In this document: piece by piece, positions 9,153-35,150 of the stretch | How the letters are laid out: each line of letters opens with the position of its first letter | Numbering within the stretch: the stretch's first letter is position 1 | NCBI GenBank assembly: GCA_021234155.1 | Contig: JAJEKV010000054.1 | Location: 6,964,655-7,028,654, forward strand | DNA from: Isoetes taiwanensis | Lineage: Eukaryota; Streptophyta; Lycopodiopsida; Isoetales; Isoetaceae | Reading direction: 5' to 3' | Length of the DNA: 64,000 nucleotides | Program-made: the position numbers and the translations under genes | Notes under the pieces: generated by a model | What the model saw: only the letters and a program-made list of their open reading frames with translations | What the model was told of the DNA's origin: nothing | The model's database searches: none

Positions 9153-9185
<33 letters not shown>

Positions 9186-9221
9186 AAATTTTTTTTTTTT
9201 TAAATACACGTAAGTTTAATT

Positions 9222-9584: not shown

Positions 9585-9587
9585 CTA
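9577..9587. repeat. CACTA right end: TIR plus CTA target duplication
   Basis: TTGTAGTG (9577-9584) is the reverse complement of the left CACTACAA end and is directly followed by CTA (9585-9587), giving a matched 3-bp duplication. Confidence 0.85.
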
Positions 9588-11380: not shown

Positions 11381-11384
11381 TGTT

Positions 11385-11800: not shown

Positions 11801-12003
11801 CTAATAATGATTTGCACTCTATGATATTGGAGGTAGAAAACTATTTTTTTATAGGCAAGTAGGTTAAGCCACAAAATGGCTGTTGTGTTTTCACTCTAAA
11901 TGGCCTTAGACATATATTTTTCATCTTGAGGAGCTTAAAACCGCTTTTTTTTTTTTTTTATTTTTGGAGGGCCTTAAAAAAACCGCACTTTTCACTGAAG
12001 GTT

Positions 12004-13160: not shown

Positions 13161-13665
13161 AAACTTCACCAGAAAATCATCTGTCGCAAAGTTTTTTGGA
13201 TCGTAAGATGGTGGATTCAGGGCCTGCATTTGATTGTAGAAGCATTTGAGAGCATCATCATCCACGATGATTATATCATCCTTATTCTCGATACCAAGTT
13301 CGTCCATCATGTTACTCAAGTGTTTGATGAAGATAGGCTTGCCTGTTGGATCCTTGGGATTAGTGAACTTCACACATTTGTTCTGATCCCAAAAGGTCAA
13401 CCAATGTCTATGCATTTCCCCCAATGCCTCCAAAGTATCCTTGATGTTCCTTAGTTCCATGGATGACCAAATACCAACTCAAAATAACCTGAATGCCTCA
13501 TCTAGCATCTCTTTCAAGTCATGCAAAGTGGATAGATCCACTTGGTGTTTGATTCTACCGGGTGTCCGGCGAAACCGATCTCTAGCCACTTTATTTTTCG
13601 GAAAAGTCTTGCAAAGGACTCCGTTTAGGTCGAACACCACAACCTTCTTAGAAACGCAATGGAAG
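13161..13665 (-). pseudogene. FCP1/SCP-like HAD phosphatase domain exon (HAD1)
   Basis: The frame carries the HAD signatures in order: motif I VVVFDLNGVLC (nucleophile Asp at 13631-13629), motif II VGIWSSMELRN (13475-13445), a motif III Lys in GKPIFIKHL (about 13343-13317) and motif IV DIIIVDDDALKCFYN (about 13277-13233), then ALNPPSYDP. This order is that of the NIF/FCP1 family of phosphoserine phosphatases and related plant proteins with DLNG in motif I. A TTTCAG acceptor precedes the exon (AG at 13667-13666), and a GT follows the codon for Phe at 13161. One in-frame TGA (13481-13479) falls just before motif II, so it is either a pseudogene or a 1-base consensus error. Catalytic residues are otherwise kept. 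Substrate is unknown. Confidence 0.75.
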
Positions 13666-13869
13666 CTGAAACATCAAACATGTATCCTGGTTCGCCAGAA
13701 GATAATGATAACACAAACAATACAAACGCGTAAGCGTGATTTGAGATAGTCTTAACCAAATCGCCAAATTCGGTATTGATTTTGTTTGACAACGAAAAAT
13801 AATCAAAGAACGCCAAGACTTTAATTCAAAGGTAATAATACAAATTAAATCACGCTGCGGGCGCGATTT

Positions 13870-14349: not shown

Positions 14350-15085
14350 AGGAGATTTGGCAAGCACATGCGGGTTGATACAGGGTAAAGTGGGCCATTG
14401 TAGTTGTCCCCCTGCCCCCTAGAATAGTTTGAAATGTAGGTCAAGTCCCCCAAGAAGAGTTTGAAATATAGGTCAAGAAGTGGTTAGACGTAGAGGCATT
14501 AATACTAAAAAACTACCAAATTGCATTAATTAGGAAATTTGTTCTATTAGCTAGTTACTGAGCAAGAATCGTGGTAATTACTAATTCTGGTGTATGGAGG
14601 GAAATGCAAAATTGCGAGCACGGCAGGATCAGGTTGCTCGATCCAATTGCATTACCTGATCAATTGCATGTTTCCTAACATTGCATGACCTGATCAATTG
14701 TGAATCCTTCTTAACATTTGGCATTGGCGATAATTTAAATTGAATGTGTTTTCTTGAAGAAATGGAATCGGAATCGGGGGATTGAACTATTGGAATCGGA
14801 TTCGGGTCCGGACTAGCAACCTGAGAAGGCAAAAATTTCAAGAAGGAGGAAGAAAAGAACAAGAGAAGAGGAAACCGAGAGGAAAAAGACCAACGCCAGA
14901 GAAAAAAAAAAATGAAGATGCATTGGTTTCTCAGATTGTAATGCATGTTTTGGAGTAGAAAGAAGCATAGCCACCAATGCAGAGGAGAGTGGGTGTGAAT
15001 CTGGTGGAATCATTCTTGAAGCAAATCTAAGCATATGAGTGTGCAAATTAAAAAGGGATTCTAAATTACTTTATTCAAATAAGGC
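14350..15085. other. Divergent intergenic region between HAD1 (-) and RNH1 (+)
   Basis: Short, low-complexity frames (Phe/Leu/Ser-rich) occur on the minus strand at 14629-15046, with no recognisable domain. If both flanking fragments were once genes, their 5' ends meet here, so promoters could lie in this interval. No TATA box stood out. Confidence 0.3.
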
Positions 15086-15089
15086 ATTG

Positions 15090-17013
15090 GATGGAATTGT
15101 GGGAGATGATCTCGGGGGACTTAAAAGCAAAGAACCAAATGATAAGTAACATCGGGGAGTCTATTAAGACCGTGAAACAAATTTACAAATTTGATTGTTT
15201 GGCGCCAAAAGAGTTATTTGGCTATGGCGCTTGGTGGAGAAAATGAGAATTTGAGTAACAGAAAAAATTGGAAAGCTACTTGATGTTCATCCAAGAAACT
15301 AAAGAAAAACAGGGAAGAAATTGATTGCAATGGAGGAAAGTGGGTGTATTATAAAAGATCTAAAAAGGTGTGACTCTATCTCGATTCAATTATTACACTT
15401 GTACAAACATTTTGGACCTCAAACACTAGAGTTTCTCCAAATACTAAGGATGTAAAATTTAGAAGACTAGAATGAAATATTAGAGAGGAGCATGCAAAGA
15501 CATTATCCGAACAATCTCAGGTTGGTATCTCTTCTTATCTCTTCCTTTGAGATTTCTATAGTTGAGGTTTTCAATAACAGCTTTGCTATAGTGGTTGGAT
15601 TAAAAGTTTATATCGTATATCTCTTTATAGTTCTCAAGATCAATTATTGAGCTACAATGGTTTACTGCCTAGCCATAGTGGCTTGTCTTTAACTATAATT
15701 TCATTTGTGCCCTTGATCTTCAATGGTTGTTTTCCAACTATAAGTGGTTTGTTTTCAAACCGAGTGTATTCTTGGAGATATAGTGGATCTCAAACCATAT
15801 TCACACATAGTTTGAGTGCAACTATATAATGGTGGGAGTGTTTCAACATAGTTCGGGTGCAGCCATAATGGTGTGTGCTTTAAACATAGTTGGAGTGCAC
15901 TCTTGGAACTACAGTGGTAGCAGTAAGTGGAAGACTGTAGTAAGTGGTATACAGTAACAGTTATGGTTTGTAGTAGTAAGTGGTATACAGTAGTAGTTAT
16001 GGTTTGTATTCCTCTTTTGTGCTATACTTTGAGAGTTATTTTGCATGCTAACACATATATTCTTTACAGTCTGCAATTGTACCGAACGTTCAAAGAAGAA
16101 TACCACAAGCTAAGGTAGGAGCAAGATCTTTTCAAAAGTTAAAACCATGGTTTGTGGTGAAGCTAAAAGACTATAATACATGCTGTTGTATTCATCATGT
16201 TAGGCTTGGAATGCTGCTTGATGCATTCAAAACAATGAGAAGGAAGCATTCTGAACCTTGTGAATGTACTTGTAGTGTATGTGAACCTCACCATACGTGC
16301 ACTTGTAATGCTCACGCGTTAATATTCTCTTCAACACATGAGTTATGGAGGTGCATTGTTTGTCCAAAAGAAGTTGATGATGAGTTCCATAGGAAGGACG
16401 CCTTTATGGTACTTGTCGTAATTGTGGCATCTCCATGTTGCATATATGTCCTCTTTGAATTGAGTGATGCAGAAATGAATTGGGAGTATTTGGACTATGA
16501 GGGTGCAGGATTGGGCAAGAATGGGAAACCAAGGAAGATTCTCAAGCATCAATACAAGAAGACCACTTCTAAAGAATTTGTGGAGAAGTTACGGATAGAT
16601 TAAAGAGGTTTCCTTTGCATAACTTTAGGTACAAAAATGGCAAGACAAGCAATTTCGAGTCAGCCGGAAAATCTACCCTCGATGTAGTGGTCTCGGGTGG
16701 ATTTTGCCGAGAACTACACCTTCAAAGAACGTCATCAAGTGCAATCTCGATTGTGCAAAGATTCGTAACAATCCTTGTTCACATTACTTATCATGTGGAT
16801 GAAAGTGGGCAAGTCGTAAAGAAACACACTTCTATATCTCATGACAAGAAGCATGATACTCTTTTGTACAACATTATTTTAAGATGCATTTCGGTACATG
16901 GAGGCCAAGGGCTAAAACCCAAAAGGCATTGGGTCTGGTCTGATGGAGCTGCATCACAATTTAAGGCAGCTCGTCCAATGTATTTTGTTCTCCGGTACTC
17001 AGTTGAAACACAG
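15090..17013 (+). pseudogene. Transposase-like gene, HTH plus RNase-H-like motifs (RNH1)
   Basis: Three parts are visible. Exon a (to 15520) holds an HTH-like stretch KIGKLLDVHPRN and then NTRVSPNTKDVKFRRLE, ending CTCAG|GTTGG. After a TTTACAG acceptor, exon b (from 16070) reads LYRTFKEEYHKL, FQKLKPWFVVKLKD and a Cys/His cluster (CECTCSVC, HHTCTC). The next part has DFAENYTFKERHQVQS (Asp at 16700-16702), HDTLL and HWVWSDGAASQFKAARPM (Asp at 16942-16944), then a donor at 17013/17014. Two Asp-centred motifs 80 codons apart suggest an RNase-H-fold nuclease as in DDE transposases; that is inference. Frameshifts near 16112, 16600 and 16690-16745 and an in-frame TGA in exon a break the gene. The C-terminal HGK and Cys motifs of its homologue at 29.8-34.1 kb were not found here. 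Confidence 0.7.
15590..16010 (+). repeat. Degenerate repeats in the RNH1 intron
   Basis: Within the intron, phrases such as CTATAGTGGTTTG, CACATAGTTTGAGTGC and TTATGGTTTGTAG recur. The last 75 bp contain a 36-bp tandem duplication (AGTAAGTGGTATACAGTA followed by TTATGGTTTGTA, ending near 15972 and 16008). The TTATGGTTTGTAG form resembles the reverse complement of the motif repeated at 20.3-20.7 kb. Confidence 0.6.
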
Positions 17014-17264
17014 GTAAAAACTGGTTTGGACGGGCATTTTTGTAAACAAGTTACAAGTATTAATATAACTGTTTTCTTAAGTGTTTTCTTAAATGTTTTG
17101 TATAAGTTCCATAAAAGTTCTGATATAAAAGAAAGCTCTGATTCAACGTGTCTTGCATACTGTTTTGAGAATGTTCTGAACCGTGTCTTGTGGCAACCGT
17201 GTTGTGGGTCTCATGCTCATGCGTAAAAAAACATGTATTTTATTCTTTCTTTCTCTTAGTAGAC

Positions 17265-17420
17265 CAAACATCTACATGCAGCAAGTGGACAAATCTTAAA
17301 CCATGCAAATATATATAAGCCATGCAAATCTTAAACCATGTACAAATCTTAAACCATGCAAATCTTAAACCATACAAATCTTAAACCATGCAAATCTTAG
17401 CGACAATGCAAATATATATA
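17265..17420 (+). repeat. 17-bp tandem repeat (CATGCAAATCTTAAAC)
   Basis: Copies of CATGCAAATCTTAAAC and close variants lie in tandem from about 17290 to 17400, with ATATATATAAGCCATGCA phrases at each side. It lies just 3' of the last recognisable RNH1 exon. Confidence 0.75.
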
Positions 17421-17884
17421 AGCCATGCATGTAAACATGATGACATGAAGTGGGACATCCACTTGAGTAATGCAACCAAAGAAAATTTTCTCCATCCGAA
17501 ATCTGAATCAAAAATGCTAAGCATGAATGCTAGTATCTATCCAAATGAAATAACCTCCACAAACCTAAATCCTTGTCATATTTCAGAGATTACATACCTG
17601 ATATCAAATAAGAATACCAGATATCAAATACAAGAATCAAAACACAATGATATTTTAAACCATTCTTTTTGTCAACAATTCAATTATTGAATCAGAAATA
17701 TCATCCAACCAATTAGTAATAGGATGATCTCAACATAGTCTACAATGTGATTTGAGTCTCTCAAGCCCTCCAACCATGGCTTCAGGTTGGTTCAATAGAA
17801 ATGACCTATCCCTCGCTCGGATGGAAAGAGATTGGTGTGATCATAGTATGAGGGCTATTCTTATACCCTTTATATTGGTGATCA
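17421..17884. other. No gene recognised
   Basis: The open frame 17388-17690 (+) is Asn/Ser/Ile-rich with no motif and starts inside the tandem repeat. It looks non-coding. Confidence 0.4.
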
Positions 17885-18277
17885 TCAATCATCAAGGTAT
17901 TCATGTGTTATAATATCCTCCAAGCTCTTTGTCATTGTATACTTTTTTCTCGCACGCTTCAAGCTTATGTTGACTTTTCCTCGATACTTGAAACCTACCT
18001 TCATGCACTTATCAACACCCCATTCAAACACCAATTTCTTCTTCAATTTTGCAAGAAATACCTTATCGGGTGATTGACTTCAAACTTGCAACATCCAAAT
18101 CGTACCACATGGCAATGTCAAAGTGTTCACTGCAGGCTCAAAAACTCTATTGCATCCGGCCTTAAAATAACGAGCTTGCTTTTGATAGATGCCGAGGCCT
18201 TTCGTTCCTTCTTCGAATGGAAGTTGGGATCCCTCCCTTTGTCTCATACATTTTACCAAGCACTCCATTGAAATCAA
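17885..18277 (-). CDS. C-terminal exon of an unknown minus-strand protein
   Basis: The minus strand reads YFKAGCNRVFEPAVN…, one in-frame TGA near 18080, then a basic helix-like tail (LAKLKKKLVFEWGVDK, SLKRARKKYTMTKSLEDI) ending HEYLDD and TGA at 17887-17885. I do not recognise the family. It is convergent with RNH1 and could be the partner gene of that element, at the place where the HAD2 gene sits relative to RNH2. Confidence 0.4.
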
Positions 18278-18283
18278 ATATAA

Positions 18284-19324
18284 TTAGCTTTCTAACAACC
18301 CCTTTCTTTCTTTAAAGGAGGTGGAGAGATGATACACTGCTTCAGCAAGATACACTTCCCAAATTATCACTTCTGCTTAATGCAAGCATAGAAAAACACA
18401 TAAGAAAATACAAGCTTCAAATGCATTTCCCTAATAAATCATACCTTGCCTTTAAATGACATATTGTTTGCAATCTTGGTCTTCTTTGGAGTTGCATCTT
18501 CAATTCTATTTGAGGCTGCACAAACTCCACAAAATATCAAAACCATTAGGGGAGCTCAATGGTTAAATTTCTAACTTGATTGCACTCAATTAAGCATATG
18601 TTCCAAAATCAATGAAATTTAACAAGATTTAGCTAGATTAGCATACCATTGAGCATTACACCATCACACATTGATGAACTTCTCATTTCCAAACGCCGCG
18701 ACTCTTTGATCATCAAAAGTAGTCCTTCTATTAATGCACAGATGTTTGATTAGATCATGATGAAATTTCAGAATCAAGTTATTAAAACCATATTATTAGA
18801 ACTTACCTATTGACAATTCCCGATCTCCAATGGTAGCTTCTTCGATATATGGAAAGCTCTCTACTACAACTCAAAAACGTGTGTAAATAGATGCAAATAT
18901 AAAGTGTGGACTCTAGCATTGGACTCGAAATACCTTTTCGTTGTGGGGGCAAAACCTCCGATTGGTTAATTTGCTTATATATCCAAATCGATGGAGTAAT
19001 AAATGGACTCATTGGAACACCATAGTACAGTTTTACCGCCTACCATTTTTCAGTGACTATAAAGATTGCTTGTACATAAAGATACATAACACTTACTTGA
19101 GGCATATAGATCTGTTTTCATTTCTTTCCCAAGATGTTGCAGCTCTTGAACATGATTAGGGCCATGAATCTTGGTCAAGTTTCTGATCATCTCTAAATCT
19201 TACTTTGCTAAAACCAAACAAGTGTATGCATGCCTTCAAAAAAATTACCTTTTGTTTCCACCGAGAGAATTTTTACCTCCTCTTCTACATTTTCTTCATT
19301 ACCTTCCCATTAACCTTTTCTTCT
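18284..19324. other. No gene recognised, probable introns of the unknown minus-strand gene
   Basis: Only short frames of unclear meaning are present on both strands. AT content is high and no repeats stand out. Confidence 0.3.
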
Positions 19325-20100
19325 TCATAATGTGGAGATGCTTCTGCAATGTTTAATTTGCTTACATGTCCATTTGATGCAAAGAGAACATAGGTTGTTT
19401 GAAACATCATCTAACACATTAAGCAATGGATTAGTACATAAAGTTATCAAGTGCTTTTGTTGTAAATAATGTCCGTTACCATCCTTAAACATCCCGTGCA
19501 CATGTGAGGTAGATCTATCAACACCAAGTGTTTCTAACCTGTGTTTCAGATATTGCATGGTCGCAATCAACTTGGCAAAGATATATTATCATAACTAAAA
19601 CTCATAGATAACGTTAGTAATGATAGAAGCAATCATGTCAAGTTCAAAGGTCACCATACCTTATCAAGGAAACCAAACATTGTAAGTGATATTTGTGATT
19701 GCACTCCAATGTGATTGGTAAGGGTTTGCCATCAAACAACAAAACTCTTCCACAAAATGGGCAAATGTCCGATTAGCCTCAATGCATGATTTTGAAGGTA
19801 AGTTTGGCAATTGGGGATCTAATGATATCCCCTCTTCATGTTTGGTAACCCCGATTGCAACCTTTTCAAGCGGGGTTGCAAAACGCATATTCCTCAAGAT
19901 CAGTCTTTCTTGAATTTCTAAACCTAGAAGCTCATCATTTGAACATAACAAATCTGGAATTAAGCGCCATCTCTTGTTCCCTCAAATTTATAACGCCATA
20001 ACTCCAAAGACTAGCTTCTTTGTCATATCCTTCATCAAAGCAAACCATTTACGCCTCTCTTCCTCAAAAGCTTTTTTTTCTCTCATTGACTTGCATGCAT
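19325..20100 (-). CDS. Unknown helix-rich minus-strand exons
   Basis: From about 20100 downward the minus strand reads a charged stretch (KKAFEEERRKWFALMKDMTK), two in-frame stops, then a 95-codon frame (19951-19664) with RLILRNMRFATPLEKVAIG, CCLMANPYQSHWSAI and NITYNVWF. A Cys-rich frame (NNLCSLCIKWTCKQ) follows at 19570-19325. No family is recognised. Shared orientation with the exon at 17885-18277 suggests one gene of roughly 2.2 kb with introns. Confidence 0.35.
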
Positions 20101-20324
20101 TATTTAGTTCTCTCAGATCTGTCATTGGATAAACCGATCCTTGATTCTATTTTTTCAACTCAATCTTGTTGATTCCATCCATTCATGCATAATCCCAGTG
20201 TTGTACCTATCACATGCAACACATATTTATCAAAAGATACTTGGATACAAATGATACTAATTCATGACCATACTAAATGTAAGGAAAAACGGGTAACTAC
20301 AATCCACAAGACATACATGAGACA

Positions 20325-20700
20325 AAGCATATCTCAGGCTACAAACTATGAAACAACATATCTCAGGGCTACAAACTATAGCAACATACTATGAAACAAA
20401 GCATATCTCAAAGCTACAAACTATAAAACAAAGATATCTCGTGGCTACAAACTATAGCAAGATACTATGAAACAAATCATATCTCAGGCTACAAACTATA
20501 GCAACTATCTAACTATCCGCTAGACATCTTTAACTACAAACTATAAACTACACTATATACACTTTCAAGCTACATAATGTAAGACAAAGTACAACTCAAC
20601 TATACACACAATCGAAAGCCACAAACCATAATTTAGGCTACAAACCATGAACCATACATAAAACCATAATTTAGGGCTATAAATCCAACACCTCAAGAGG
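20325..20700 (-). repeat. Tandem-like array of GCTACAAACTATGAAAC units
   Basis: GCTACAAACTAT or close variants recur at about 20338, 20369, 20413, 20444, 20488 and 20532, and decayed (CCACAAACCATAA, GCTACAAACCATG) at about 20618 and 20637. Copies alternate with CATATCTCA and CATACTATGAAACAAA. The reverse complement (CATAGTTTGTAGC) resembles motifs in the RNH1 intron at 15.6-16.0 kb, so this may be one side of an inverted pair around RNH1 and its neighbour. Confidence 0.75.
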
Positions 20701-20759
20701 CATGAAAAGAACATTGAACTTAATCACCATATCAAACCATAATTTAGAGCTAAAACTAG

Positions 20760-22029
20760 CAAACATTTCATGCAATCACCACACCAAACCATACACAAAC
20801 CCCAACAAGATACAAACCAGTATAATTTATGTGGCTTTGTAATCTCACTATTCTCGTGACAATACAAATCACAAAACAACATGGAGCATACAAAATAATC
20901 TAAGACCTATTTGCTATCTAAAAATGGTGAATACCTCGGGCAACAATAACAAGCAAAGATGCTTGATCAATTTTAAAATTGAATCCAAATTATACACTTT
21001 AAGTAATTCATTGTGAAAAAATAGAGAAACATTTACTTGAAACCACGCCAATTCCAATTTGGCTATGAATTGCAAGTAAGTGTAAGATAATTAGTGGTCA
21101 GATGATCTTAAACAAACTCAAGGTAAAAGATGTGAAGAAAGGATTACCACTTTTTTTGTTGCGCACTTTTTTTCAAGATTTAGAAGTGACATTAAGTCGG
21201 GTCCCACCGATAATTGAGTGCTCGCATGATTCTTCTCTTGTAACCTATTCCGGGAAAAAGTGTCCTTCTTACTCTCTAACTTTTGTGACCTTGAATTTTC
21301 AGCAAAGATGTGCTTGAAAAGATAACTAATTTATTTGTTTCCTTCATCTCTTTGAAGAAAATAAGCAACAAAAAAAGTTTGTGGAATTAGACCTCCCTAT
21401 AAAGATTCATTGGACTTTCCTATAAAGATTCATGAACTCATTCCTCTTTGATAATTAGAGGTTCCTCAATTTGTAACAAGACTTAACCTTATCTCCCCAA
21501 AATTGGTTTATTTCATTCGATTTTATCAAACTCCTTTTCCCTTATATAGATCTCAGATATGACAATCCATCTGAGCTTAGTTCCTTTGAAGTCGCCTTTT
21601 TCACTACCACCCATGATTATTTTCTCCACCATTCACTTCTTTGGTCTACAAATCGTTGACCTACAATAATAAGTCTCGATTCCTTTCATGATCTAGAAAA
21701 GAACTAAATCTGGCTAGGGCATGAACAACTTGCTGCTTCCTTGAATTAGCCTCTCTCCTGTTATTCTTAACAAGCAACGAGATACTTTCTGTGAGCCGAG
21801 AATGTCCGAAAGCTTTTACATAACATAATTTGGAGATGTGAACTTGCCTTCCGTCCCTGTTCCGTCCCTGATTGAATGAACATGGAAGAGCTTCTCCCGA
21901 GGTGAATTTGCATCGAAACAAAAGTGGGAATTTTGAAAAATTTCAAAAAATCGTTTCTTCCCACTTTTTCCCACAATTTTCCTCAGAAGAATCCATTTTG
22001 GAGGTATCCAAAATGGAATTTCTTTCAAA
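20760..22029. other. No gene recognised
   Basis: Several frames of 66-86 codons occur on both strands (for example 21661-21921 and 21767-22028 on the minus strand). They overlap one another and show no motif. Nothing here can be supported as a gene. Confidence 0.35.
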
Positions 22030-23751
22030 GCATTAATAGCTCAGATTTCAAATTTTGAGGGCATATTTACTACAATTTTCAACTTCATTTTGTGGTTTCA
22101 AAATGCACATTTTTGTGCCACCTTTATCATGCATCAACCCATGCATGAGGAATGGTTCAAGAAAGTCTTTGGCCTCGCTCATCACCCACAAAGCAAAGAC
22201 ATCTTCTAACACCCATAAGAGCCTCTCGCAATATAACCTCCAACATGAAGCTCCAAGCAGTTGTATCAATTGGAGCAAATGCCTCGACGAGGTAAGCAGC
22301 CATAGACGGGGAAATCCATTTTTATTTAAGGGGCCTTTCTCCTTAGTTTGTAGCTCAGACTTGATTTCCCCCCCACTTAGAAGGGGTCCCATCCTCATCC
22401 TCTTCCTCGACTCATCCCGCTCGACCGATCCCGATCCGTATGATAGAATATAGTTCTTAAGTCTTGATCATCTAGAAGAAAACATTCCCATGCAATCCGC
22501 TATTGTCACCCTTGGCCTTAGCAATATCATATTCCTCGTCCGACAAAGATGGCTATCATAATAAAGATCACATGTGCCATCTTCCGCTCACTTCGCAGAC
22601 TCATTATCTTTAACATCATATATTAGGCATCCCTCCCTAATAACTTTGACGACTTTTCATGAGATCATGATATAGTGCATGCGATGTGACTCACCAAGGA
22701 CAAACGATGACAATAGTGAAGGACCTCTCGGTTTGTCAATCCTATACACCGTAAAGAAGTCGCTTGTAGTCCTTCTCCGTTCATGCCCATATCTCCTCTC
22801 CCACCCCCGGCCGCCCAACACAAAGAGTGATATATTTTTAAGGCAATCGCTTGATTCCCGCAAGAGATCTTTGTACCCAATGGAGACTGAATACCGGATG
22901 TTGTCTTCTTCTCCAAGAATCTTCTTCACAAGGGCCACTTTTCTTCTCAACTCGGCAAAGACCTTAGGGGTAGAGTCTCCTTATGTTTTGTATTTTTAGC
23001 CTTCCAATTCTTTAGGAAGTCCTTTGACCAGAATACAAACTTCTTGATGTCATCATTAATCGACCTTGTATTTGTCCAAAGAATCCAATTTCGAGATAAT
23101 GCCACATCCCCATAGCCTTTGTAACACGCCTCCTACAAACCGACTTCATTGTGCGATCGTGATATCCTTCACATGGTCGCAACACTCAACGGGACATCCT
23201 ATCCTTAGTGAAAGCACTCTTCTTATATAAGACTTCCTTCTTTAAGCACCGGTCTAAAAACCCAAATGGTCTCAGCCGCCTAGCCCCCGAAGTCTTTCTC
23301 ATCTCTATCACATTCAAGTCAAAAATGCTTACATCAGCGAGGCACCCTACCCATAGTATCCGGCAAGACTTCCCCGTGCATAAGCGTCCCTGCATTCATT
23401 CCACTTTTGCCATACCGCCTTCTTACAAAACACAATCTTATATGAGTCTGTTGGGCCTGACACGCTAGATGAGCTTTAAGAAGGATTTGCAATGTCATCA
23501 CCACCTTTTTCTTTGATTTTCTTGCGCTTTTCTTCTTCTCAGATAATTGTTCATGACAGAAGTCCGCTCTAGCAGCTTTGAAAGCCTCGGACTTTGACCA
23601 TACCGGCGGTGGGTAATGGGCAACCATATTCCACCCATCGTTGATTCGGAGTGGCGCAGCTTGTTCCATGTATGGACCGCCAAAAGTAATGCGTGCATTG
23701 AATCAAGATCGAAGACAAGAAACACGCCGGCGATTTCAATAGAAAAGATCA

Positions 23752-24010: not shown

Positions 24011-24513
24011 TAAAGTGCCAACATCCTAATGCACCAATTACCTTTTGTATAGAAATGTCTTCCCATTTCATTCAAAGTTGCACTAATCTCACCAAATCGG
24101 CAGTGAAGTATTACCATCCAAGAGACGACACCTCCTATAATGCATAGTGATTGTAGAACATGGTTTGGCCTCGCTTTGTTCACTTTGCCTCGATGAGGGC
24201 CTTTTTGTGCCTCAACGGAATGTCTGCCCGTCGATGATGACGAATTTAATATCATCATTTAATAATAGCTCCTCGACGTTCGTCCATACAACAGGCTTGT
24301 TCGAGATCATATCCCAAGGTAACACATCCGCTGGCATAGGCATTTGACCTGGATTACTAATCATGCTCTGAACAATCTCCATGGCATGTGCTGGATCATA
24401 TCTTCTGCTAACATAAATGGAGCTTGGTGAACGGATGAGGGACTTCACATGGATCGCAAAACTTTCCTTAAGGGGTAAAAGCATGCTGTGGTGTATCAAA
24501 AACGTGCATTTTG

Positions 24514-24527
24514 ACGCCACATTTTGG
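24514..24527 (+). repeat. Left 14-bp flanking direct repeat (candidate target duplication)
   Basis: ACGCCACATTTTGG occurs here and again, perfectly, at 34352-34365. It lies directly against the left terminal inverted repeat. Read on the minus strand it encodes PKCGV in the frame of the interrupted gene on both sides. Confidence 0.65.
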
Positions 24528-24543
24528 CACCACCTTTGTGGTA
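24528..24543 (+). repeat. Left 16-bp terminal inverted repeat
   Basis: CACCACCTTTGTGGTA pairs with the reverse complement of 34330-34345, with one C/T difference. The core CCACCTTTGTGG is itself nearly palindromic, which slightly weakens the orientation argument. Confidence 0.6.
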
Positions 24544-24734
24544 GAATCGGGTGGTGCATACCGAAGCGGAGATTGCGGGAGTGCGAATTAATGAGCGTCG
24601 GTTATTTTGAATTTTATGCCACGTCATTGTCTACCTTTTTGAATTAAGAAAGAATCACCTCTTCCTCTGTTTTTTTGCCGCTTCTTGCCGATTGAACCCT
24701 AATAGAGTCAGAATTAAACGCCACTGGTTACACG

Positions 24735-27700
24735 ATGAAATCTCTCCTCAAACAAGAGATTGTGCCCCACGAAGATCTAAATAAGCTTTGGGGTGACAGA
24801 GTTCCAAATAAATCTGGCTACAGGTATTTTCCCCCAAATGTTTTGTTCAAACTGCAAAAATTAAGGCATATGTTTTCTTGTACAGGTTGAAGAATCTGAG
24901 CAATGAACAATACAAAGAGTTCATGCAAATTTACAAAAGAATTACAGGGAAGCCATATACATGGGGTGGAATGGCTCCCGAACCCGGGCAAAGGGCTTAT
25001 TATCCGCATATAAAGGGGGGGTTAAATGGAAGAGCTTCTGGATTATTATAAAACTCCCGATGAGAAAGCAGAGGCCGCCTCTTCTAGACCCAAGAGAAAG
25101 CATAGGCAAATCCAACCCGACGAGGAGGAAAAATAGTAAAAGTGACAGGGATGATGAAGATGATAGGAAAAACCAAATCAGTTCCTCTAGACCACACATT
25201 CAATCCGAACTCACAATCAAAACACAAAAGCAAGAGCAATGTTCGAGACCAAAACATGCCATTGCGTGTATGTTCAATTATTAGTTGTGTTACAAATGTA
25301 AAAAAATCTCAAGCTTGATCTAGTTGTTTCTATCAACACGTAAAAGGTAACATCAAATCCACTTCAAGAATCGTATGTCTACTACCATTTTGCATCATGT
25401 TGGTCAGATTGTCATGTTGTGTCTCTATGATGCCATCTCGTGGGGCATTTCGTGCAATGGATGCCGAATGATAGATGAGGTATGTGTGGGTGGTGGTGAG
25501 TTGTTGGCATCCACCATGTCCCACACCACACCCCACGATCTCCCACCACTACACTCCCCACCATCTCCCACCGCCACACTTCCACACCACACACCACCAC
25601 CACACACCACCACCACACACCACCACCACCACCACCATCACCACCACCACCACCACACACCACCACCACCACCACACGCTTTATACCTTATCCACCACCA
25701 CCACCACACTCCACCATGTGACGGAACACCAAACTGCACCACCACCACATTCCACACCACCACCACAATTGTTTTTTGCTCCACCACCACACCACCCACC
25801 AACGCTTATCCACCACCACCACACTCCACCACCACCACACCACACCCCACCACCACACCCCATCACCACACCACCACTCCACCATGTCCCACCACACCAC
25901 CACCACCACCACCACACCCCCCCACCACCACCACCACCACCACCACCCCACCACCACCACCCCCCATCACCACCACCACCCACACCACTCCACCACCACC
26001 ACACACCCCCACCACCACCCCACCAAACCCCACCACCACCACCACCACCACGCACACACACACACCACCACCACCACCCCACACCACCACCACCACCACA
26101 AATGTTGTGGTGTGTACCGCGGCAAATATGTTGTGTGGTGTGTGGTATGTGGTGGCGTGTAGAGACTACCTTGTGTTGTGTGGTGTGTGATTGTGGTTTT
26201 CCATCGAGACGCGGGCTTACTATGTTAGGAGGCTGACATATATGTAGTGTTTTGTTTTGCGACTATGGCGCATTTGTGAAGGAATGGTTGGCCGCAACAT
26301 CAGCTAGGTTTGATAGATGCAAGCAACGATTGCAAAGCAAACGATGATAGGAAAAATGATATCAAAAAGAAAGATTGAGTTGATGGAGCATAAAGCATCG
26401 AAATTAGAGCTGATTTGCACAGATGGCAATCAATCATGACAAAGAACCGAAAGCAGCAGGGTGTTCGGGTTGTGTTTAACCTAAAGGATGAAGAGCTAAA
26501 TGGTACAAAGGTTGCCCAATGAAACAATTAAATAAGGAATTAACGTAAACTAAATTGAGCTAAAGGCATGTGAAGACTTATCGCTGAGCTGCTACCTCAA
26601 TGCAAAGATTTGAGATTTTTTCTCGAAATGTAGTGGTCATGACACTCCTTTAGATCCTGCACTTCCAATGCTTCCCGAGGCAGAAGAAGAGGGTGATGAA
26701 GGTTGTCCATTTTGTGGACGTTGTCCAAATGGGAGGGTAAAATGTTGCCGGGCCAGATAGCGAGAATGCACCACCAAGATCATATTCCATGTCTATCACA
26801 CCATTTGAGGTAAATATTATCATCTCTAACCCTCGCCTAAAGACTCTATTGATTTTGAATTTGTTTTGCGTACACTCTAGAACCTCGCCGCAGCCCCAAG
26901 CCAGGCCACATTATGATCGAGACATGGCTTTTGGCTTTTGGTGTTCGAAAGTGGTACCACAAGAACCAATAGACACAAGTAAGTCCTTTTTGATGGCTTA
27001 GTCTCTTTTGCTTGTCCTTTATTGTATCTAAAGTGCCCCCGGGATGAGATCGCCGCTCATTTTAGGGGCACTTTAGATATATATAAACAGAACATCGAAA
27101 GAGTAAAAAGCCCAGTGCGTGACCCTCTTGAATGGTTGTCAACTCACCAGCTTGATATTGTTCGCCACAAACAATATAGATTCGCATATATAAACAAGTG
27201 CCTTAACTAATGTTTATCGATGTTGTCACAGTCTACCGACTTAGTGTTTGCGAACTGCGTAAATTTGAGACCAAGGATATCCAACAGCTATCCACGCCTC
27301 GACGCTTATGAGACCGCAAGATACCTCCCGATTGTACCTAGAATTCACCCCATTTGATACTCCTAAGTCAATCCCACCGCCGACGGCGTGGAGACTCCAA
27401 AACGAATTTTGATAGTCAATCAATGCAACAGATCAAGTAAGTACCGATGCCACATACATGATTTATTTTTTGTATTTTTCTCGTGGTCTTCCTCATTTCA
27501 ATTATGTTGCGTAGATAAATGCTACCGCAACCGAAGCCATCACTTAAGAGATTCCTAGTGCATCTGATTTAGGGGGAAAATTAATTCCCTTGAGATTCAT
27601 TCCTCAGACGGGTCCTTCACCAAAAAGTTTTGGTGGTGAATATGAGCCAAATGCGGATGCGTGATGAAGTTGACAAAGAAACCCCGATCCCGGACAAGAT

Positions 27701-28361
27701 GCATCGCTCCAACGAGTCCAATATAACCTCAACCAACAAAACCAAGAGGTTAACTGAAATTCTCCTTGTTCTGGATTTTAATGGGGTTTTAGGCAAGTTT
27801 TATGACTTGAAAGAGAGGATCCTCGACGTCCGAGCTGTAAGTGACCATCCGTAAATTGAACCATCAAAAGTTCGCAGCTTCCAGCCCCGGATTTCAGGAG
27901 TTCTTAGAATGGTGTTTTTCAAAATTTGAGATTGCATTGTGGTCCAAAGATGGCTAAGAGTAATGTTGACTTGTTGATGAGAAAGTTGCCGGGGAATATA
28001 AGGGCGATTTCTTTTTATTTGGAATCGATGACTGCACCAACACAAAATTAAAAGTGGTTAATAAGCCAATTTTCCTTAAGGATCTGTCCAAAGTGTACCA
28101 GAAATTTTGGAGATACCAGGTGACAAACACATTGTTGATAGATGACAACAGATATAAGGGTTCTCGCCAACCACCAACACACAATGATATGTCCAAATAG
28201 TTTTCCACTTTCCTTTTGGAGCAACTCAAACCATGGTCGGAGGGACTTCGCTCACAAAAGTGTGCCAAACTTATGTGAAGGAACATCAAATGTGGAACAT
28301 GTGGGATTCTGAAGAGTCGCGCATCTGCATGAAAATGCTCGACAAGTATTTTCATAAATGA
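24735..28361 (+). CDS. Multi-exon gene with C-terminal FCP1/SCP-like HAD phosphatase domain (HAD2)
   Basis: Exon 1 is 24735-24823 (MKSLLKQEIVPHEDLNKLWG…), with a clean 62-bp intron (GTATTTT…TTGTACAG, 24824-24885). Exon 2 continues RLKNLSNEQYKEFMQIYKR and, after a frame change, LLDYYKTPDEKAEA and the basic KRKHRQIQPDEEEK. A large gap with (CCA)n follows, then probable small exons: CPFCGRCPNGR (about 26705), SYSMSITPFE ending at a GTAAAT (26811), DMAFGFWCSKVVPQEP ending at GTAAGT (26981), and a Pro-rich part to 27640. The HAD domain has motif I ILLVLDFNGVLG (from 27759), FLEWCFSKFEIALWSK (about 27898-27945), KPIFLKDLSKVY and motif IV NTLLIDDNRYKG (28124-28159), and ends YFHK plus TGA at 28359-28361. 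At least two frameshifts lie inside the HAD part (about 27860 and 27955). That all exons form one gene is inference from order, strand and spacing. Confidence 0.6.
25536..26100 (+). repeat. (CCA/CAC)n microsatellite inside the HAD2 gene
   Basis: About 565 bp of imperfect CAC/CCACAC repeat lies on the plus strand. It is flanked on both sides by short GTG-type phrases (GTGTGGGTGGTGGTGAG near 25485; TTGTGGTGTGTAC and GTGTGGTGTGTGG at 26103-26190), so the tract can fold back. His/Pro/Thr-rich and Gly/Val/Trp-rich frames across it are artefacts. A mirror-image tract lies at 31622-32300. Confidence 0.9.
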
Positions 28362-29750
28362 ATCTTGTAAAACTCTTTGAAAGTCAATATAAGTAAAAAA
28401 ATTTCTATGATATGTGTTGTACTTTTTCAATTTAAAATATTTGAATGGATTGTGAGCAAATGTTCTCGTGTGTGTTTAGAACTAGAGATGATAGAGCTTC
28501 GCAGTCCCCCCCGACTATCTAAAGCCAAATACACATCCGAAGTGGTGTCGAGTGGAACCCAAACCGCCGCGGATTAGCTCCAATCGACATCAAAATTTTG
28601 GAAGCCGATACGCCAGTGGTTCAATGATCAATTGATCCTCCTCTTCTCAAGGTGATACTTTCATCTGATTTGTGATCATCGATTGTGCCGATGATATGCA
28701 TATGTTTGCGTATACATGGAATACTACTTGATTCTCCAAGGAATGAGCCATCCCTTTCATTTCTTTTGACCCTCTTTTTTCACTGACATTGTCCAAGGAC
28801 ACAAATAGTTACAAAACAACAAGGAAACATGTGAATCCGATAAGTGCCAAGACATGTTTTTTGCCTGCTTGTGATGGACATCATCGACCTGTTTTCTTCG
28901 ATTGTAAGCCACGCGCGTCTCGCATGAGAGATATAAACCGTGGATATATCACTTTGATAGCTCTCGCTTGCATGGCGTAAGCGCATATATTGAGAGGTTA
29001 GTGCTTGCTCATTGCATTTTGGTCATTGTGGCACAATGACAACAAACTTTGAGTGCAAAGTTCGAATTGCGTGGACACAATAATTTCAGCTTTACAACCT
29101 CGATGTTGTGAAAATTTCCGTAACGCCTCTTCAAACCGATGGTCATTCATGTATTCCCTGCCAGATGTTCGCTTTTATGCACAAATTTGTGAGGGGGTAC
29201 TTAAAAAGGAGTGAATATATTGTTGCCCCGATCTAGTAAGTCAACTTAAATGTAAAGCAGACAAACCAAACTCGTTATTGACAAAGTGTGGTTAATCTGC
29301 AGTTGTGGACATTTCGACTGTGATCTAGTTGATGTTAGAGTGTTCATGCTTGAAGTTTTAAGATTAGAAGCAACAAAAGTCGGAACCGAGAGGAACATAT
29401 GTATTGGGAAGTATGTAGGTGCATGAGTCACCTCGCACTTAAATCATCAGATATCTTTTTTATGTACATAATTGTTATTGTAACCTCGATTCATTTCAAT
29501 GAAAATTCATATTCAATTCATCTCACAAACAAAGGAATCAAGTGTTTCAAGAATTCAAATCTTCAAAAGAAATCAAGACAAACTCATTTTCACAAAAAAG
29601 CACAAGACTTCACATGAGTTCAAAACTACGTAATGGTTTTACATTTCATCATCATCGAAAGAACTTCGGTAAATTCTCAAAAATTTTCTCCTCATCTAAA
29701 GGATCCAAAATTCTATATACAAATCTGCTTTTGACGCTTAGTTGGTGGCA
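28362..29750. other. 3'-to-3' intergenic space between HAD2 and RNH2
   Basis: No domain is recognised on either strand. Short frames at 28377-28577 and 28789-28980 (+) have no family match. Terminators or poly(A) signals for two convergent genes would be expected here but were not individually resolved. Confidence 0.35.
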
Positions 29751-31621
29751 TGTGAAGTCCGATTGCAATGATCCGTGTTGTGAATACTATGCCTAAGGCG
29801 CCTTTCATTGCAAAAGATCATAGTCGACGGTTGATCTTGCGCCCTTCTTGTAATACATACCTTCTATGACACTATCACCTACAGGTACCATGTTCCATTG
29901 AGTTGGAAGTCTTTCTCCACTATCCATTTTGGTTTTGTGCACATCAATCCAAAATTCAAACCCTCATCATTCCCTTTCTGAGCAACGACAAAGAAAAATT
30001 ATCACCAACTCTAAGTGCCTCTCGCTAACATCGTGGGATTGGAGGAGAACAAGGACTCATGGATTTACGGTCCTCAATGTCGCGATGCACATTGGAGGAT
30101 GGTACAATAACTTGAAGTTTCCAATCATCAACGTAGTGCTTGTTCACACAACTGCCCCACATGCCATCCAAGCAAGAGTCGCATGAAAGTTCCCTCGTGT
30201 GCAACCGCATGGAGATTCAGGGATTGAATGCATGTACACAATGGATCTGCCTAGTGTCCAAAAATCCTTTCTCGCACCCCATGCTTTCTTTCTATCTATA
30301 TCCTCCACCTTGACTTCCCAAAAGAACCTTTTTTATATTCTTCCTTCTTATCGGTTTCAGATGTGTTCATCCACTTGGATGTTCCACAAGTAAACATCTC
30401 TTCTAAGAACTTCTACCACTTCATGAGCATTACCCAATTTTATGTCTGTCAGATTTTAATTGCGCTTGTCTTAACCATCTCTTCAACTCAAAGAGCCTTT
30501 GCCATCGTTTCATCTTTCCCGTGGTTAGAACCAAAAAAATTCCACATCATATAGACATCGTGTGCGCTTGTGTACCTAGCCACAAAGTAAAATGGTCTAG
30601 AAGCCTTGAATTGAGATGTTGCACCATCCGAAAACACATAATGTTTGTTTAGAACCCTTCCTTTCTGCCCAGATATTTGTGGTGCTTCATGAAGTCTTTG
30701 CCCACTAACAAAGTATCGTGTTCCCTATCATCTGATACATAGTAATGTGTTTCCTTGATAATCTCATCTGCCACTGAGTCATACTGATATGTTATTTGAA
30801 CCAAAATGGTAATCTGGTTATTGACCCAGCGCATCGACTGCACCTCCTCTTGTTCCTTGAATGTATAGTTCTCTCGCAAAAATCCACTACCGAGACATGC
30901 ATCTGCCGGGAGATTCTCCGTAAGCTCCTTAAACTGCTTTTGCCCGCCATTGGTACCGAAATTATGCAAAGTTGGAAAGATTTTAGACGCTCTTTTCAGT
31001 TTATCCGAAGCTCCTTGGGTTCCTCTCATTGTACCGATGAGTCGGGCCTCCTACCGTAACTCCTCAGAGTTGTCTTTTTCATAGTCAATGTACTCCCATT
31101 TCACTTTCCTACTGCCACTTCCTTCCATGGGACAGGTCTGAAACTTCTTGATTCCACACAGCTCACAATTTCCAAGGATGCACGCTTTCTGTGAAACTCA
31201 TCTAATTCACTCTTTGGACACAATATAGATCTCCACAAGCTTCCTCAGACTTGCAATTTTATGCCGGTGTGCCCCGCATTGACCAAGTTCATGTGATCTA
31301 CAAACATCGCAGTGCAAGTGCAATTCTTCTGATGTTTGGTTCTCATCCCATTGAGTCCATCCACTAGCATTTGCATCCTCACGTCTGAATGCAACAAAGA
31401 ACTATTGAAGTCCTTCAATTTCACAACAAACCCAGGGTTTTAGCTTCTCAAAAGCTCAAGATCGAATCTTAATTTCTCGATGTTGGTCCGTAAACCTCTT
31501 GAACAATAGCATCTGCATGAAATGAACATTAAACTGTTAGGGATGTGTATACCACACCAAACCATGCACCATACCATGCCCCACACTCATCATATTCACG
31601 GGCTCGAGCACCTTAGTGTCG

Positions 31622-32300
31622 TGTATTACCACACACCACACCACACCACCACCACACCATACCATTCACCACACACCATACACCAAATGGTGGAGGTGTG
31701 GTGGTGGGGAAGGTGGTGGTGGATCAGGTGGTGGGGGTGGTGGAGTGGTGTGTGTGGTGGTGGGGAATGTGGTGGTGGGGGGGGGAGGTGGGGGGGGGGT
31801 GGTGGAGGTGTGGTGGTGGGGCATGGTGGTGGGGTGATGGTGGGGGGGTGGTGGAGTGTGGGGGTGGTGGGTGGGGGGGGGTGGTGGGTGGTGTGTGTAG
31901 TGGTGTGTGTAGTGTGGTGGGGTGTGGTGGTGGGGTGTGATGGTGGTGGTGGTGTGTGTGGTGGTGTGGGTGGGGGTGTAGTGGTGGTGGTGTGGTGTGG
32001 TGTTGTGGTGTGTGGTGGTGGTGGTGGAGTGTGGTGGTGGTGGTGGAGGGGGTGTGGCATGTGGTGGGATGTGTGTGCATGTGGTGGTAATGTGGTGAGT
32101 CATAAAGATGTGGTGGTAGTCTATGGTGGTGGGATAGATGGGGTGTGGTGGGGTGAGGGGAGAATAAATAAAATTGAATCCACACATATCATACATTAAC
32201 ATGCACACCCATATGACACCATGGACATAACGCCACCCCACACCACCACACCACACCACACCACACCACACCATCAATACACCACACATCACATCACATC
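31622..32300 (-). repeat. (TGG)n microsatellite in the RNH2 intron, with flanking (CAC) arms
   Basis: About 31622-31683 is CAC-rich, 31688-32160 is GTG/TGG-rich and 32234-32300 is CAC-rich again on the plus strand. This is a fold-back layout, and the exact mirror image of the tract at 25.48-26.19 kb. On the sense strand of RNH2 the long part is CCA. Reading frames over it are artefacts. Confidence 0.85.
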
Positions 32301-32564
32301 ACTTTTATCCTATTTCCGGGACATAAAAAATCACTGCTTTTGCTCTCATAAACACTTATAATTGCAGTACACCACGATAATAATTACATTCCTCTTCTAA
32401 TCATTAGAAAAGGATCACGGGTCCTAAATCCTGCTCCTCGCCGATTTTTCTGCGTTTCATTCCCAATTAGCCAATTGAACAAGTTCATTCCGGCAACATG
32501 GTAGGAGGGGATGTTCGTGAGATCACTACGGCTATTGTAGGGTGAGCGAGGAGGGCATTCGCAC

Positions 32565-33043
32565 ATGTTGAACGGGGCTCGGATCAATCTCCTCAAGGTG
32601 GATATGCCTAAATCCAACTTCTTTGTCGATTTCGAATCCAACCTAAAGGCATACAAATGCAATGGATCTTTGGGCCTTCAATGGCTATGCTTGGAGTCGA
32701 TTGATGGAAGAGCTCTTAGACAAGGTCCATCGACTTATGTTACATGTTGCTTTGCAAGGGCGGTACCGTATATTTGTTCTCAGGTCACTTGTCCGGGCCC
32801 GACAAAAGCGGGTTTCTATGGCGTAATTCGTGCATTACCACCACCGGGGATGCAGGAAGCACCGCAAACCTCATCCTATTAAATTGGATGACTGCAGAAA
32901 GCTTAGATGCTTTAGTACGTAAAAACAATAATTTTGATGCACCAGTTCTCGAGCTACCATACCAAAGATTTCTGTTGCTTAGGATCATGCATGTAAATTT
33001 AGTTCTCGCACAGAAGCTTTCAATGGAAAGCCAAATTTTGTAA
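32565..33043 (+). other. Unassigned ORF pair inside the RNH2 intron
   Basis: Two overlapping plus-strand frames (32565-32882 and 32744-33043) run antisense to RNH2 inside its long intron. They contain NLLKVDMPKSNFFVDFESN and TAESLDALVRKNNNFDAPVL but match no family I know. Codon usage looks protein-like rather than low-complexity, so a nested or captured gene fragment is possible. Confidence 0.25.
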
Positions 33044-34329
33044 AGCCAAATTTTGTAAGATCCTTTTTAATATATCATACTTTCCAACGAGTTGTGCTTG
33101 AATCGACAAAAATTGTCTTTATTCAACAAAAATTTGTATCTCGTGATCGCTTAGTTATAGCTCAAATATTTTTAGACCTGCACACACCCAAAGAAAGGAG
33201 TACTCAATTACGCCATGTTCTAATAATATTCCAAACATTAAATATTGCATTTCGGACTAGAGTCAACTACACACAATTCACATGTCGATATACAATACAC
33301 CACAATCACTTGTAAACACAATAACCACCACATGCACCACCACACTAAGCACCATAACTAAGAAAAACATGAATAATGTAAATAAACTAACTTGTGATTC
33401 CTCCGGATAGTGGGCAGCATGTTCTTCTCTTACATTTCTCTCCAATCTTCTAGTTCTAACATCCTTTGTGTTAGGAGACACTCGTGTTCTCAATCCAAAT
33501 TTTTGAATCTTTTTCTATATGTTCATCTGAAATTGCATGAATCTTTTAGCCCTCTTGTAAGAAACCCATTTCCCACCATTGTAATCGATCTCTTCCCTCT
33601 TTTTCTTTGCCTTTTTGCAAGTTTCTTGGGTGAATACCTAATACCTTTCCAAGATCTCGCTGGCTGATTTTGTCACTTGTTTGGGAATCATCGGCGGTAG
33701 GCTCTGACATTGCAAGGCGGCTATTCTTGGTCGCTAGGGCCATTCTTTGGTAGAGAGTTTGGCCGACCGCATGGAGTCCCAGCTCCTTATATAACGATGT
33801 TCTTGGCTTCCAAATCCTTTAATTCTTCACCTATGAATTTTTTCCAATGTTTTATCCCTCAAAAAATAAGTAAAATTTCTTTCTTATTGCTATCCTCCAT
33901 TCTTTTTTTGTCATTTATGGAAAGACGTTAGCAAATTAAGGACAATACGGGCGTTCTTTTGCACTTCTTGATGAACCGGATCCTTCCGCCAATCCCTGCA
34001 AGCTCCAATTTTCTTCTCTTCTTCTTTTCCTCGGCGTCTTTTCTTCAACATTTCTTGTTCGTTGGTTCTTCTTCGTTTTTCTCACAGCAAAATGCCGGGT
34101 TTGTGTCTACGATTACCTCATTGACATCCATATCCACAATGGATTGAGCTCGCGCAGCTGAGGAGGGAGCCAAAGAACGTGATCGGGTGCAAAAAAAACG
34201 AGGAAGGGGCCAAAGAATAGGAATTTGAATTTGAATTTTAGTTTTTGAAATTAAAATTTCCCCACGGTACCGAGCGGGACTCTATTCTTAAATACCAGAA
34301 CCGGTGGCGGTGCCATAATTATACTTCCA

Positions 34330-34345
34330 TACCACAAAAGTGGTG
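34330..34345 (-). repeat. Right 16-bp terminal inverted repeat
   Basis: TACCACAAAAGTGGTG on the plus strand is the inverted partner of 24528-24543. Six bases (GATGCA) separate it from the right copy of the 14-bp direct repeat. Confidence 0.6.
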
Positions 34346-34351
34346 GATGCA

Positions 34352-34365
34352 ACGCCACATTTTGG
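34352..34365 (+). repeat. Right 14-bp flanking direct repeat (candidate target duplication)
   Basis: ACGCCACATTTTGG is identical to 24514-24527 and in the same orientation. Confidence 0.65.
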
Positions 34366-35150
34366 GGGCCGGGGGGGACAACCGGTTGGAACACCACAGA
34401 TACTTTTTACCCTAAGACCCAATGGATAATGGTCACTATCATTCACATTGTTCATGGCCTTTAGGCTGCGCCACCCTATCCGCTTCATTCTAAAAAGCGA
34501 AGCCTCCATGCCTTCGACAACTGCCGGGTTAAACATCCTTCGAGATCTAGGACCCTCCTAGAAGCTTTCAAGTCGGCTAATTCCTAGCTTGTCGCAAATA
34601 GTGACTTGGTGTGGGCCTTAGTGAACATGCCTCCTACGAATTTGTAACCCCTTGGCAAATAGATATTGGGCGTAAGCGCTACATTATTTGGCCAACCATA
34701 CTTAAAACATGTCTCACTTAGTTCACATCCGTCTTCATGAGCGTATCCTTGTATGCGATTTCTCACATGAGGAATAAGTCCGGCGGATCTTTCTTTTTGC
34801 TTATGTGTAATCTCCAAGAGCAATTTGCGCTTGGTGTCATCCTCTTCCCTCACAAGAGATTAGGATCCCTTGTTTGGTCATCTTGTTCCGCTTCCTTTTT
34901 TTCCTCGAGAGAGAGTTAAGTCGAGCTTGCCATTTGTCTTGGCAAGGTCAACGCATTCAATTTGGCACCCTCGTCCATTTCCTCTTCAGGTGGCGGGGTC
35001 GGGTGGTTGCTATAAGAATCGGGCCCTTCATCATCTAAGGTGAGATCATATGAATGCGCATCCGGGTCGCTCTACCCTTGCTTTCTTAGCGGGAATAGAA
35101 CCTGGAATTATTAGTGGTTTCTTCCTCTTGGGCCGCAAAAAGAAGATGAA
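34352..35150 (-). pseudogene. 5' part of the interrupted minus-strand gene
   Basis: From about 35080 the minus strand reads an acidic/proline-rich stretch (DPDAHSYDLTLDDEGPDSY, PTPPPEEEMDEGAKL), LSLEEKKEAEQDD, then, with frame changes, KRKLLLEITHKQKERSAG and FKYGWPNNVALTPNIYLPRG (34853-34584). It ends NNVNDSDHYPLGLRVKSI…PPKCGV at 34352. The frame meets a stop shortly inside the 9.8-kb element. The PKCGV codons overlap the 14-bp direct repeat and continue in frame at 24527, which is why I pair it with the ParB-like 3' part. Function is unknown; the N-terminus resembles a linker rather than a catalytic domain. Confidence 0.4.

Follow-up and report, generated by a model that had tools for sequence, protein, structure and literature searches.

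Introduction

Sola elements encode a DDD-transposase, generate a 4-bp target site duplication (TSD), are mostly 2-9 kb long with variable ends and are found in Physcomitrella (PMC10741241). Azolla is reported to have more SOLA elements than Salvinia (PMC10741241, PMC9033089, PMC6786969), and amoebozoan Sola2 elements combine 4-bp TSDs with a second, captured gene, Fanzor1 (PMC3627910). Some Ginger1 elements carry Ulp1; proteases of the Ulp1 type are known to accompany Ginger1 and Mutator transposases, and a role in transposition has been suggested for them (PMC2836005). In the current study, we analyzed a stretch of 64,000 nucleotides from Isoetes taiwanensis (C1061:6964655-7028654; hereafter, the window) and an insertion at positions 24473-34412 of this window, which contains a transposase gene and an accessory gene with coiled-coil, RING-like and FCP1/NIF-type HAD parts. 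We estimate a probability of about 80% that this insertion derives, in decayed form, from an autonomous transposon of the cut-and-paste type, probably Sola-like and belonging to a large and diverse family, in which the accessory protein helps the element to act in the host cell and is not cargo.

An earlier description of the window, made from the letters alone (hereafter, the sequence-only reading), had proposed that a DNA transposon encodes both an RNase-H-like transposase and an FCP1-like HAD protein here. This proposal is supported by our analysis, as is the convergent arrangement of the two genes, i.e., the HAD/NIF gene on the plus strand and the RNase-H-like gene on the minus strand face each other.

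Boundaries and Target Site Duplication

The insertion spans positions 24473-34412 (9,940 bp), with ends 5'-GGGTAAAA, as defined by an empty site (locus L051) and by further copies in which both ends were compared. L051 represents a further copy of the repeat around the element and lacks the insertion; its positions 1341-3631 align to window positions 36712-34413, and its positions 3628-5956 align to window positions 24472-22140, with ~85% identity. The tetranucleotide TAAG, which flanks the element on the left (24469-24472) and on the right (34413-34416), is present once in L051. The left terminal inverted repeat (TIR), 5'-GGGTAAAAGCATGCTGTGGTGTATCAA (24473-24499, plus strand), is identical at 20 of 27 positions to the right TIR, which reads in the sequence as 5'-GGGTAAAAAGTATCTGTGGTGTTCCAA on the minus strand (34386-34412).

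The genome searched comprises 1,658,258,908 bases in 1,110 contigs. DNA searches with the element ends produced 541 left and 493 right candidates at first pass, and 39 per end were scored, with the window excluded. The family of the window element is referred to as lineage 1. A perfect 4-bp duplication was found in all 11 lineage-1 copies read at both ends, namely the window copy and nine further copies (TAAG, TAAT, TTAG, CACA, AGGC, GATT, GTAC, GGTT, TTTT and AGTT) and L048 (AGCT). The termini of the window copy and of the nine further copies are of the 5'-GGGTAAAAGCACGCTGTGGTGT type (10/10).

As a separate observation, the left 350 bp of the window copy (24473-24822) share 94.3-98.6% identity with five further copies, whereas its right 280 bp (34130-34412) share only 83.7-88.1% with five copies that are 94.5-98.5% identical to each other in this segment.

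Transposase and Superfamily Placement

The transposase gene consists of an N-terminal exon (33392-34131, minus strand), in which basic and helix-turn-helix-like regions were recognized by eye, and a main exon (29657-31524, minus strand) that contains a Cys cluster, a predicted RNase-H-like core and the C-terminal part. In copy L045, the N-terminal exon matched no Pfam family at a score exceeding the cutoff. Decay is evident in the window copy, in which both genes are broken: the main exon has several stop codons and frameshifts, its longest open frame is 133 codons, and stops are present in all three frames. In L048, 526 codons of the main exon form an open frame, and the exon lies within a frame of 593 codons in L046, the first ~130 codons of which are repeat-derived; a copy of another lineage, L071, has a transposase frame of 659 codons.

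We aligned 24 transposase sequences that represent several lineages, the most distant being 32% identical to the first sequence (residue numbering is that of L072). Asp220 is present in 24/24 sequences, Asp305 and Asp346 are present in at least 90%, and Glu344 is just under 90%. Thus, an acidic triad, Asp-Asp-Asp or Asp-Asp-Glu, is predicted, with Glu344 or Asp346 as the putative catalytic third residue. The motifs DFAENY, SDG..(S/A)QFK and HGKG..DG may resemble uncharacterised animal transposase-like proteins.

A structure model built from the 24 sequences had a mean pLDDT of 68.2 and a pTM of 0.51. Sequence search of the transposase against PDB produced no match at E <= 1, and Foldseek produced no match with E <= 0.001 among viral models. 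With a second-look aligner, the top matches were retroviral integrase cores (Z 10.4, root-mean-square deviation (rmsd) 3.2, 151 aligned residues), and the IstA transposase was aligned with Z 8.9 (rmsd 3.8, 155 aligned). These alignments span model residues ~195-400 (mainly 198-398), i.e., the stretch with the acidic residues. The model supports, and does not prove, an RNase-H-like DDE/D recombinase core.

The closest described superfamily is Sola. Like Sola, the elements have a 4-bp TSD (the 11 lineage-1 copies, a second element of the window with ATGC, and one of two copies of lineage 3, which comprises L053 to L056), TIRs in three lineages (GGGTAAAA..., GGGTTGAT... and GGGTGTAAATATG...), a transposase with a conserved acidic triad and a size of several kb. 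Unlike Sola as characterized in those passages, which do not mention such a gene, the window element has a convergent coiled-coil/RING-like/HAD gene. Compared to the published description of Sola only, the element probably fits this superfamily by TSD, TIRs and transposase type. In the sequence-only reading, it fitted no superfamily that could be named; because the 4-bp TSD and the transposase type agree with the published description of Sola, it is placeable after all, and with the corrected ends and TSD, an "unplaceable" element becomes a likely member of a known superfamily.

Other superfamilies agree less with these data. Kolobok and piggyBac elements have TTAA as the target site, and these families were rejected because none of the 11 TSDs is TTAA; Mutator elements have a TSD of ~9 bp. 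The window element is similar to Ginger1/Ginger2 in the 4-bp TSD and the predicted integrase-like core, and its Ulp1-like frame, described below, parallels the Ulp1 of some Ginger1 elements and the transposon-borne Ulp1-type protease of Mutator-like elements (PMC2836005). In contrast to Ginger, its termini are GGGT instead of TGTNR, its targets are not CCGG/CCGT, and no integrase Pfam model was matched; Ginger was ruled out by the termini and by the 11 TSDs, none of which is CCGG or CCGT. Unlike Mutator-like elements, it has a 4-bp TSD and a HAD partner, and no Mutator transposase model was matched.

That the transposon represents an undescribed superfamily, and not Sola, is in our opinion unlikely. 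The lack of a Pfam transposase match would be expected of such a superfamily, and scans of a viral and a prokaryote collection, with two short peptide patterns per scan, confirmed no transposase relatives. The partner gene points in the same direction: no report of a DNA transposon that carries a HAD/FCP1/NIF gene was found in a limited literature search judged by title and the start of the abstract. However, the 4-bp TSD, the TIRs and the acidic triad match Sola, which is reported from a moss and from the fern Azolla in the passages cited above. A tentative possibility is that these elements form a clade of their own, possibly a superfamily, in which an integrase-fold transposase depends on a coiled-coil/RING-like/FCP1-like HAD regulator whose active site is Asp-x-Asn; this combination would have persisted while the families diverged deeply, would have expanded in one lycophyte and would have gained a SUMO-type protease in a single lineage.

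The Accessory Gene

The accessory gene starts with 5' exons at 24735-25218 (plus strand; tblastn with a hand-joined query), with the ATG at 24735 and a GT-AG intron at 24824-24885 assigned by eye. The coiled-coil/RING-like part (26255-26810, plus strand) is frameshifted in the window copy and open in L043, L046 and L048. The FCP1/NIF-type HAD domain (27741-28358, plus strand) is likewise frameshifted in the window; the Pfam NIF model (curated cutoff 21.8 bits) was matched with 53.3 bits (E = 3.4e-14) in L044 of lineage 1 and with 67.6 bits (E = 1.4e-18) in L054 of lineage 3. Downstream of the HAD frame, in the lineage of the window element, there is an open reading frame (ORF) of a Ulp1-like C48 peptidase (28716-29015, plus strand), for which the L046 copy had 22.5 bits (E = 1.2e-4) compared to the Peptidase_C48 cutoff of 20.7 bits. 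A further frame, ORF3 (32521-32953, plus strand), lies between the transposase exons and had no Pfam match in L046. The two genes of the sequence-only reading are thus present, whereas the Ulp1-like ORF, the coiled-coil/RING-like part and ORF3 had been missed.

The HAD domain is similar to NIF/FCP1-like HAD proteins, which also have plant relatives, in its HAD motifs and in its family assignment by profile. The closest solved relatives are UBLCP1 (1.2e-8 in the PDB sequence search), CTDNEP1 and SCP1. In contrast to these proteins, the element HAD is transposon-encoded and has motif I Asp-x-Asn. The catalytic signature of NIF/FCP1-like HAD proteins is DxDx(T/V), and the second Asp of motif I serves as the general acid/base in this family. 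This signature is absent from the HADs examined: a pattern search recovered 10 copies, and motif I is Asp-x-Asn in all of them (lineage 1, five; lineage 3, two; surrounding repeat, three), the other copies being too broken for the pattern. The Asn was also found in 6/6 aligned HAD sequences, among which the surrounding repeat is represented by two.

The sequence-only reading had suggested an active phosphatase of phosphoserines like those in the C-terminal domain (CTD) of RNA polymerase II. Membership in NIF/FCP1 by Pfam, the three solved relatives and the invariance of the nucleophile Asp and of the Ser, Lys and Asp-Asp residues of motifs II, III and IV, respectively, in 6/6 aligned sequences are consistent with this idea. 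Conversely, ordinary phosphatase activity is doubtful because Asn replaces the second catalytic Asp in every copy read, including those of the surrounding repeat, and we consider an active CTD phosphatase rather improbable. The same replacement favours phosphoprotein recognition or weak/altered activity over an ordinary CTD phosphatase. Judging from these residues, the accessory protein may act on proteins, with phosphoprotein binding or altered catalysis likelier than ordinary dephosphorylation. Copies with open frames exist in a sequenced plant, and the control of transposition by the HAD, RING and Ulp1 parts is therefore directly testable.

Recurrence of the Gene Pair and Selection

The window contains another, diverged element of this type (14372-22140; 7,769 bp), with ends GGGTTGATAC / GGGTTGATGC, the TSD ATGC (14368-14371 and 22141-22144) and an empty site in L051; this second element had been missed in the sequence-only reading. 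Searches with tblastn detected decayed transposase exons (14980-15520 and 16103-17016, plus strand) and, on the minus strand, HAD pieces (18305-17729; E = 1.8e-7, 9.5e-5 and 0.006), a RING-like piece (19763-19659; E = 8.3e-8) and the N-terminus of the accessory protein (21538-21352). In both window elements, the transposase and the accessory gene begin near opposite ends and converge. Lineage 3 includes a 7,481-bp copy with the TSD TGCG and TIRs identical at 24 of 25 positions, and its HAD proteins are ~30% identical to those of lineage 1.

Many transposase lineages (L059-L080) are 46-85% identical to the transposase of the second element, and several of them have open frames of 490-674 codons, suggesting that the transposon family is large and partly recent.

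The sequence-only reading had also asked whether the HAD and RNase-H-like genes co-occur elsewhere, and this is seen in other copies and in diverged lineages. The transposase and HAD match lists contain the best 150 of 5,056 to 5,745 candidates each; thus, the pairing counts are lower bounds. In lineage 1, 47 of the best 150 transposase matches have a listed HAD match within 5 kb (<=5 kb), compared to ~0.14 expected from density, and all 47 pairs are convergent. For lineage 3, 65 of the best 150 have a listed HAD match nearby, and all 65 pairs are convergent. Because even distantly related copies have the two genes together, the accessory gene probably supports the life of the element in its host.

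We also estimated the ratio of nonsynonymous to synonymous substitution rates (dN/dS), using stop-free frames only, with one pair per gene bootstrapped and frame-shifted controls (0.67 to 1.69). For L046 versus one other copy, dN/dS was 0.15 for the transposase (bootstrap interval 0.09-0.24; 364 codons), 0.44 for the HAD (0.28-0.68; 213 codons), 0.40 for the RING-like part (0.25-0.67) and 0.41 for Ulp1 (0.20-0.90); for ORF3, the comparison of L046 to L044 gave 0.19 (0.11-0.33), with dS near saturation. The medians of all scored pairs were 0.25 for the transposase (44 pairs), 0.43 for the HAD (6), 0.41 for the RING-like part (9), 0.44 for Ulp1 (7) and 0.39 for ORF3 (12). The HAD and RING-like parts are under purifying selection, as their intervals are below 1.

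These results bear on the possibility that the HAD/RING/Ulp1 gene was acquired from the host as cargo, i.e., that it is a passenger without a role in transposition. Transposons capture genes, Fanzor1 in Sola2 elements being an example (PMC3627910), and the constraint on the HAD is weaker than that on the transposase. However, lineages 1 and 3 and the second element share the same convergent order despite the low HAD identity between lineages 1 and 3, every co-located pair among the listed matches is convergent, and the HAD and RING-like parts are under purifying selection; hence, we regard the passenger explanation as quite improbable. Some cut-and-paste transposons, such as Harbinger, CACTA and Mutator, depend on a second gene that they encode themselves.

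Under the preferred explanation, an autonomous, probably Sola-like transposon, the transposase would bind conserved subterminal motifs and make 4-bp staggered joins. The accessory protein, with its coiled-coil, RING-like and FCP1/NIF-type HAD parts, would help the element to act in the host cell, possibly via ubiquitin/SUMO-type steps and phosphoprotein binding or dephosphorylation, and its targets may be the transposase itself or chromatin/transcription factors. In the lineage of the window element, the Ulp1-like ORF after the accessory gene might contribute as well.

Several observations weigh against this explanation. No Pfam transposase model matched any of the 24 transposase sequences at E 0.1, Foldseek against PDB gave no match with E <= 0.001, and an earlier model from nine sequences had a pLDDT of only 34. 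Argonaute-type RNase-H folds score nearly at the integrase level (Z ~9); because of this and the Foldseek result, the structural match should be read as a fold class and not as a function. The profile match of the RING-like part is weak (E = 0.43), thus this label rests on the Cys/His pattern, and the Ulp1-like ORF was unmatched in the lineage-3 copy searched (tblastn, one copy). Selection on Ulp1 is unsupported since shifted-frame controls (0.78 and 0.67) fall inside its interval, and the median dN/dS of the N-terminal transposase exon is 0.66 (six pairs). Of the two copies of lineage 3 for which both ends were read, one (C933) lacks a matching TSD. Finally, 103 (lineage 1) and 85 (lineage 3) of the best 150 transposase matches have no listed HAD nearby, where absence from the best-150 list does not mean that these copies lack a HAD.

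Subterminal Motifs

In the sequence-only reading, the element was placed at 24528-34351 and flanked by a 14-bp target duplication. A perfect 14-bp direct repeat is indeed present at 24514-24527 and 34352-34365, and positions 24528-24543 and 34330-34345 do form a 16-bp inverted pair, with 15 of 16 positions identical; the latter does not form the element termini. Both repeats exist, but identity among copies runs through them and beyond 24528 and 34351, the empty site that the sequence-only reading had recommended looking for was found in L051 and yields other ends (41 bp outside these repeats at 24473 and 47 bp at 34412), and the TSD is 4 bp, so that these earlier boundaries have a negligible probability.

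The matches begin at query position 1, i.e., the outer edge of the 14-bp repeat, in 35/39 left and 38/39 right cases. The 14-bp motif is present at all 16 end loci read, the two of the window included (15 exact and one with one mismatch), and is therefore part of the element. It was found on the plus strand at 8/8 left-end loci (24514-24527 in the window) and at 8/8 right-end loci (34352-34365), the mismatch being at a right end. The 16-mer is the near-palindrome CACCACCTTTGTGGTA, internal to the element (24528-24543, plus strand), with a counterpart near the right end (34330-34345, minus strand); both were identified in the sequence and at other end loci. Because it is a near-palindrome (ACCAC...GTGGT), it pairs as "inverted" by nature. 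Thus, the 14-bp repeat and the 16-bp "TIR" are conserved subterminal motifs, and the 14-bp motif is a possible candidate for transposase binding.

Surrounding Repeat and Other Features of the Window

Two tandem repeats within the element are probably intronic: a CCA-rich repeat in the accessory gene region (25511-26100, plus strand) and GGT/CCA-rich repeats, probably inside the transposase intron (31632-32302, plus strand).

Both elements (24473-34412 and 14372-22140) are located within one surrounding repeat, which has its own NIF-type HAD with Asp-x-Asn (window 13146-13673, minus strand; L051 6659-7300, Pfam 2.9e-15 in L051). The HAD at 13146-13673 was considered as a part of the 14372-22140 element and rejected, as it belongs to the surrounding repeat. 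Of 4,723 candidates for the surrounding-repeat HAD, 150 were scored; many of these have 95-98% identity and open frames. At L052 2400-4300, a rearranged copy of this HAD segment adjoins a hairpin-like GCCCAGCAACGCTGGGC and a tRNA-like 3' piece, an arrangement that, by eye, is suggestive of capture by another mobile element.

The surrounding repeat also contains a third insertion (window 351-13143; 12,793 bp), for which L051 is an empty site too; it has an 8-bp duplication, TTATGCAT (343-350 and 13144-13151), and ends GTCAGATTTAATTAAAAAGTGGGAC / GTCGTATTTAATTAAAGTGGGAC. Elsewhere in the window, the ORF at 54094-54540 (minus strand) resembles, by eye, a fragment of a Copia-type polyprotein.

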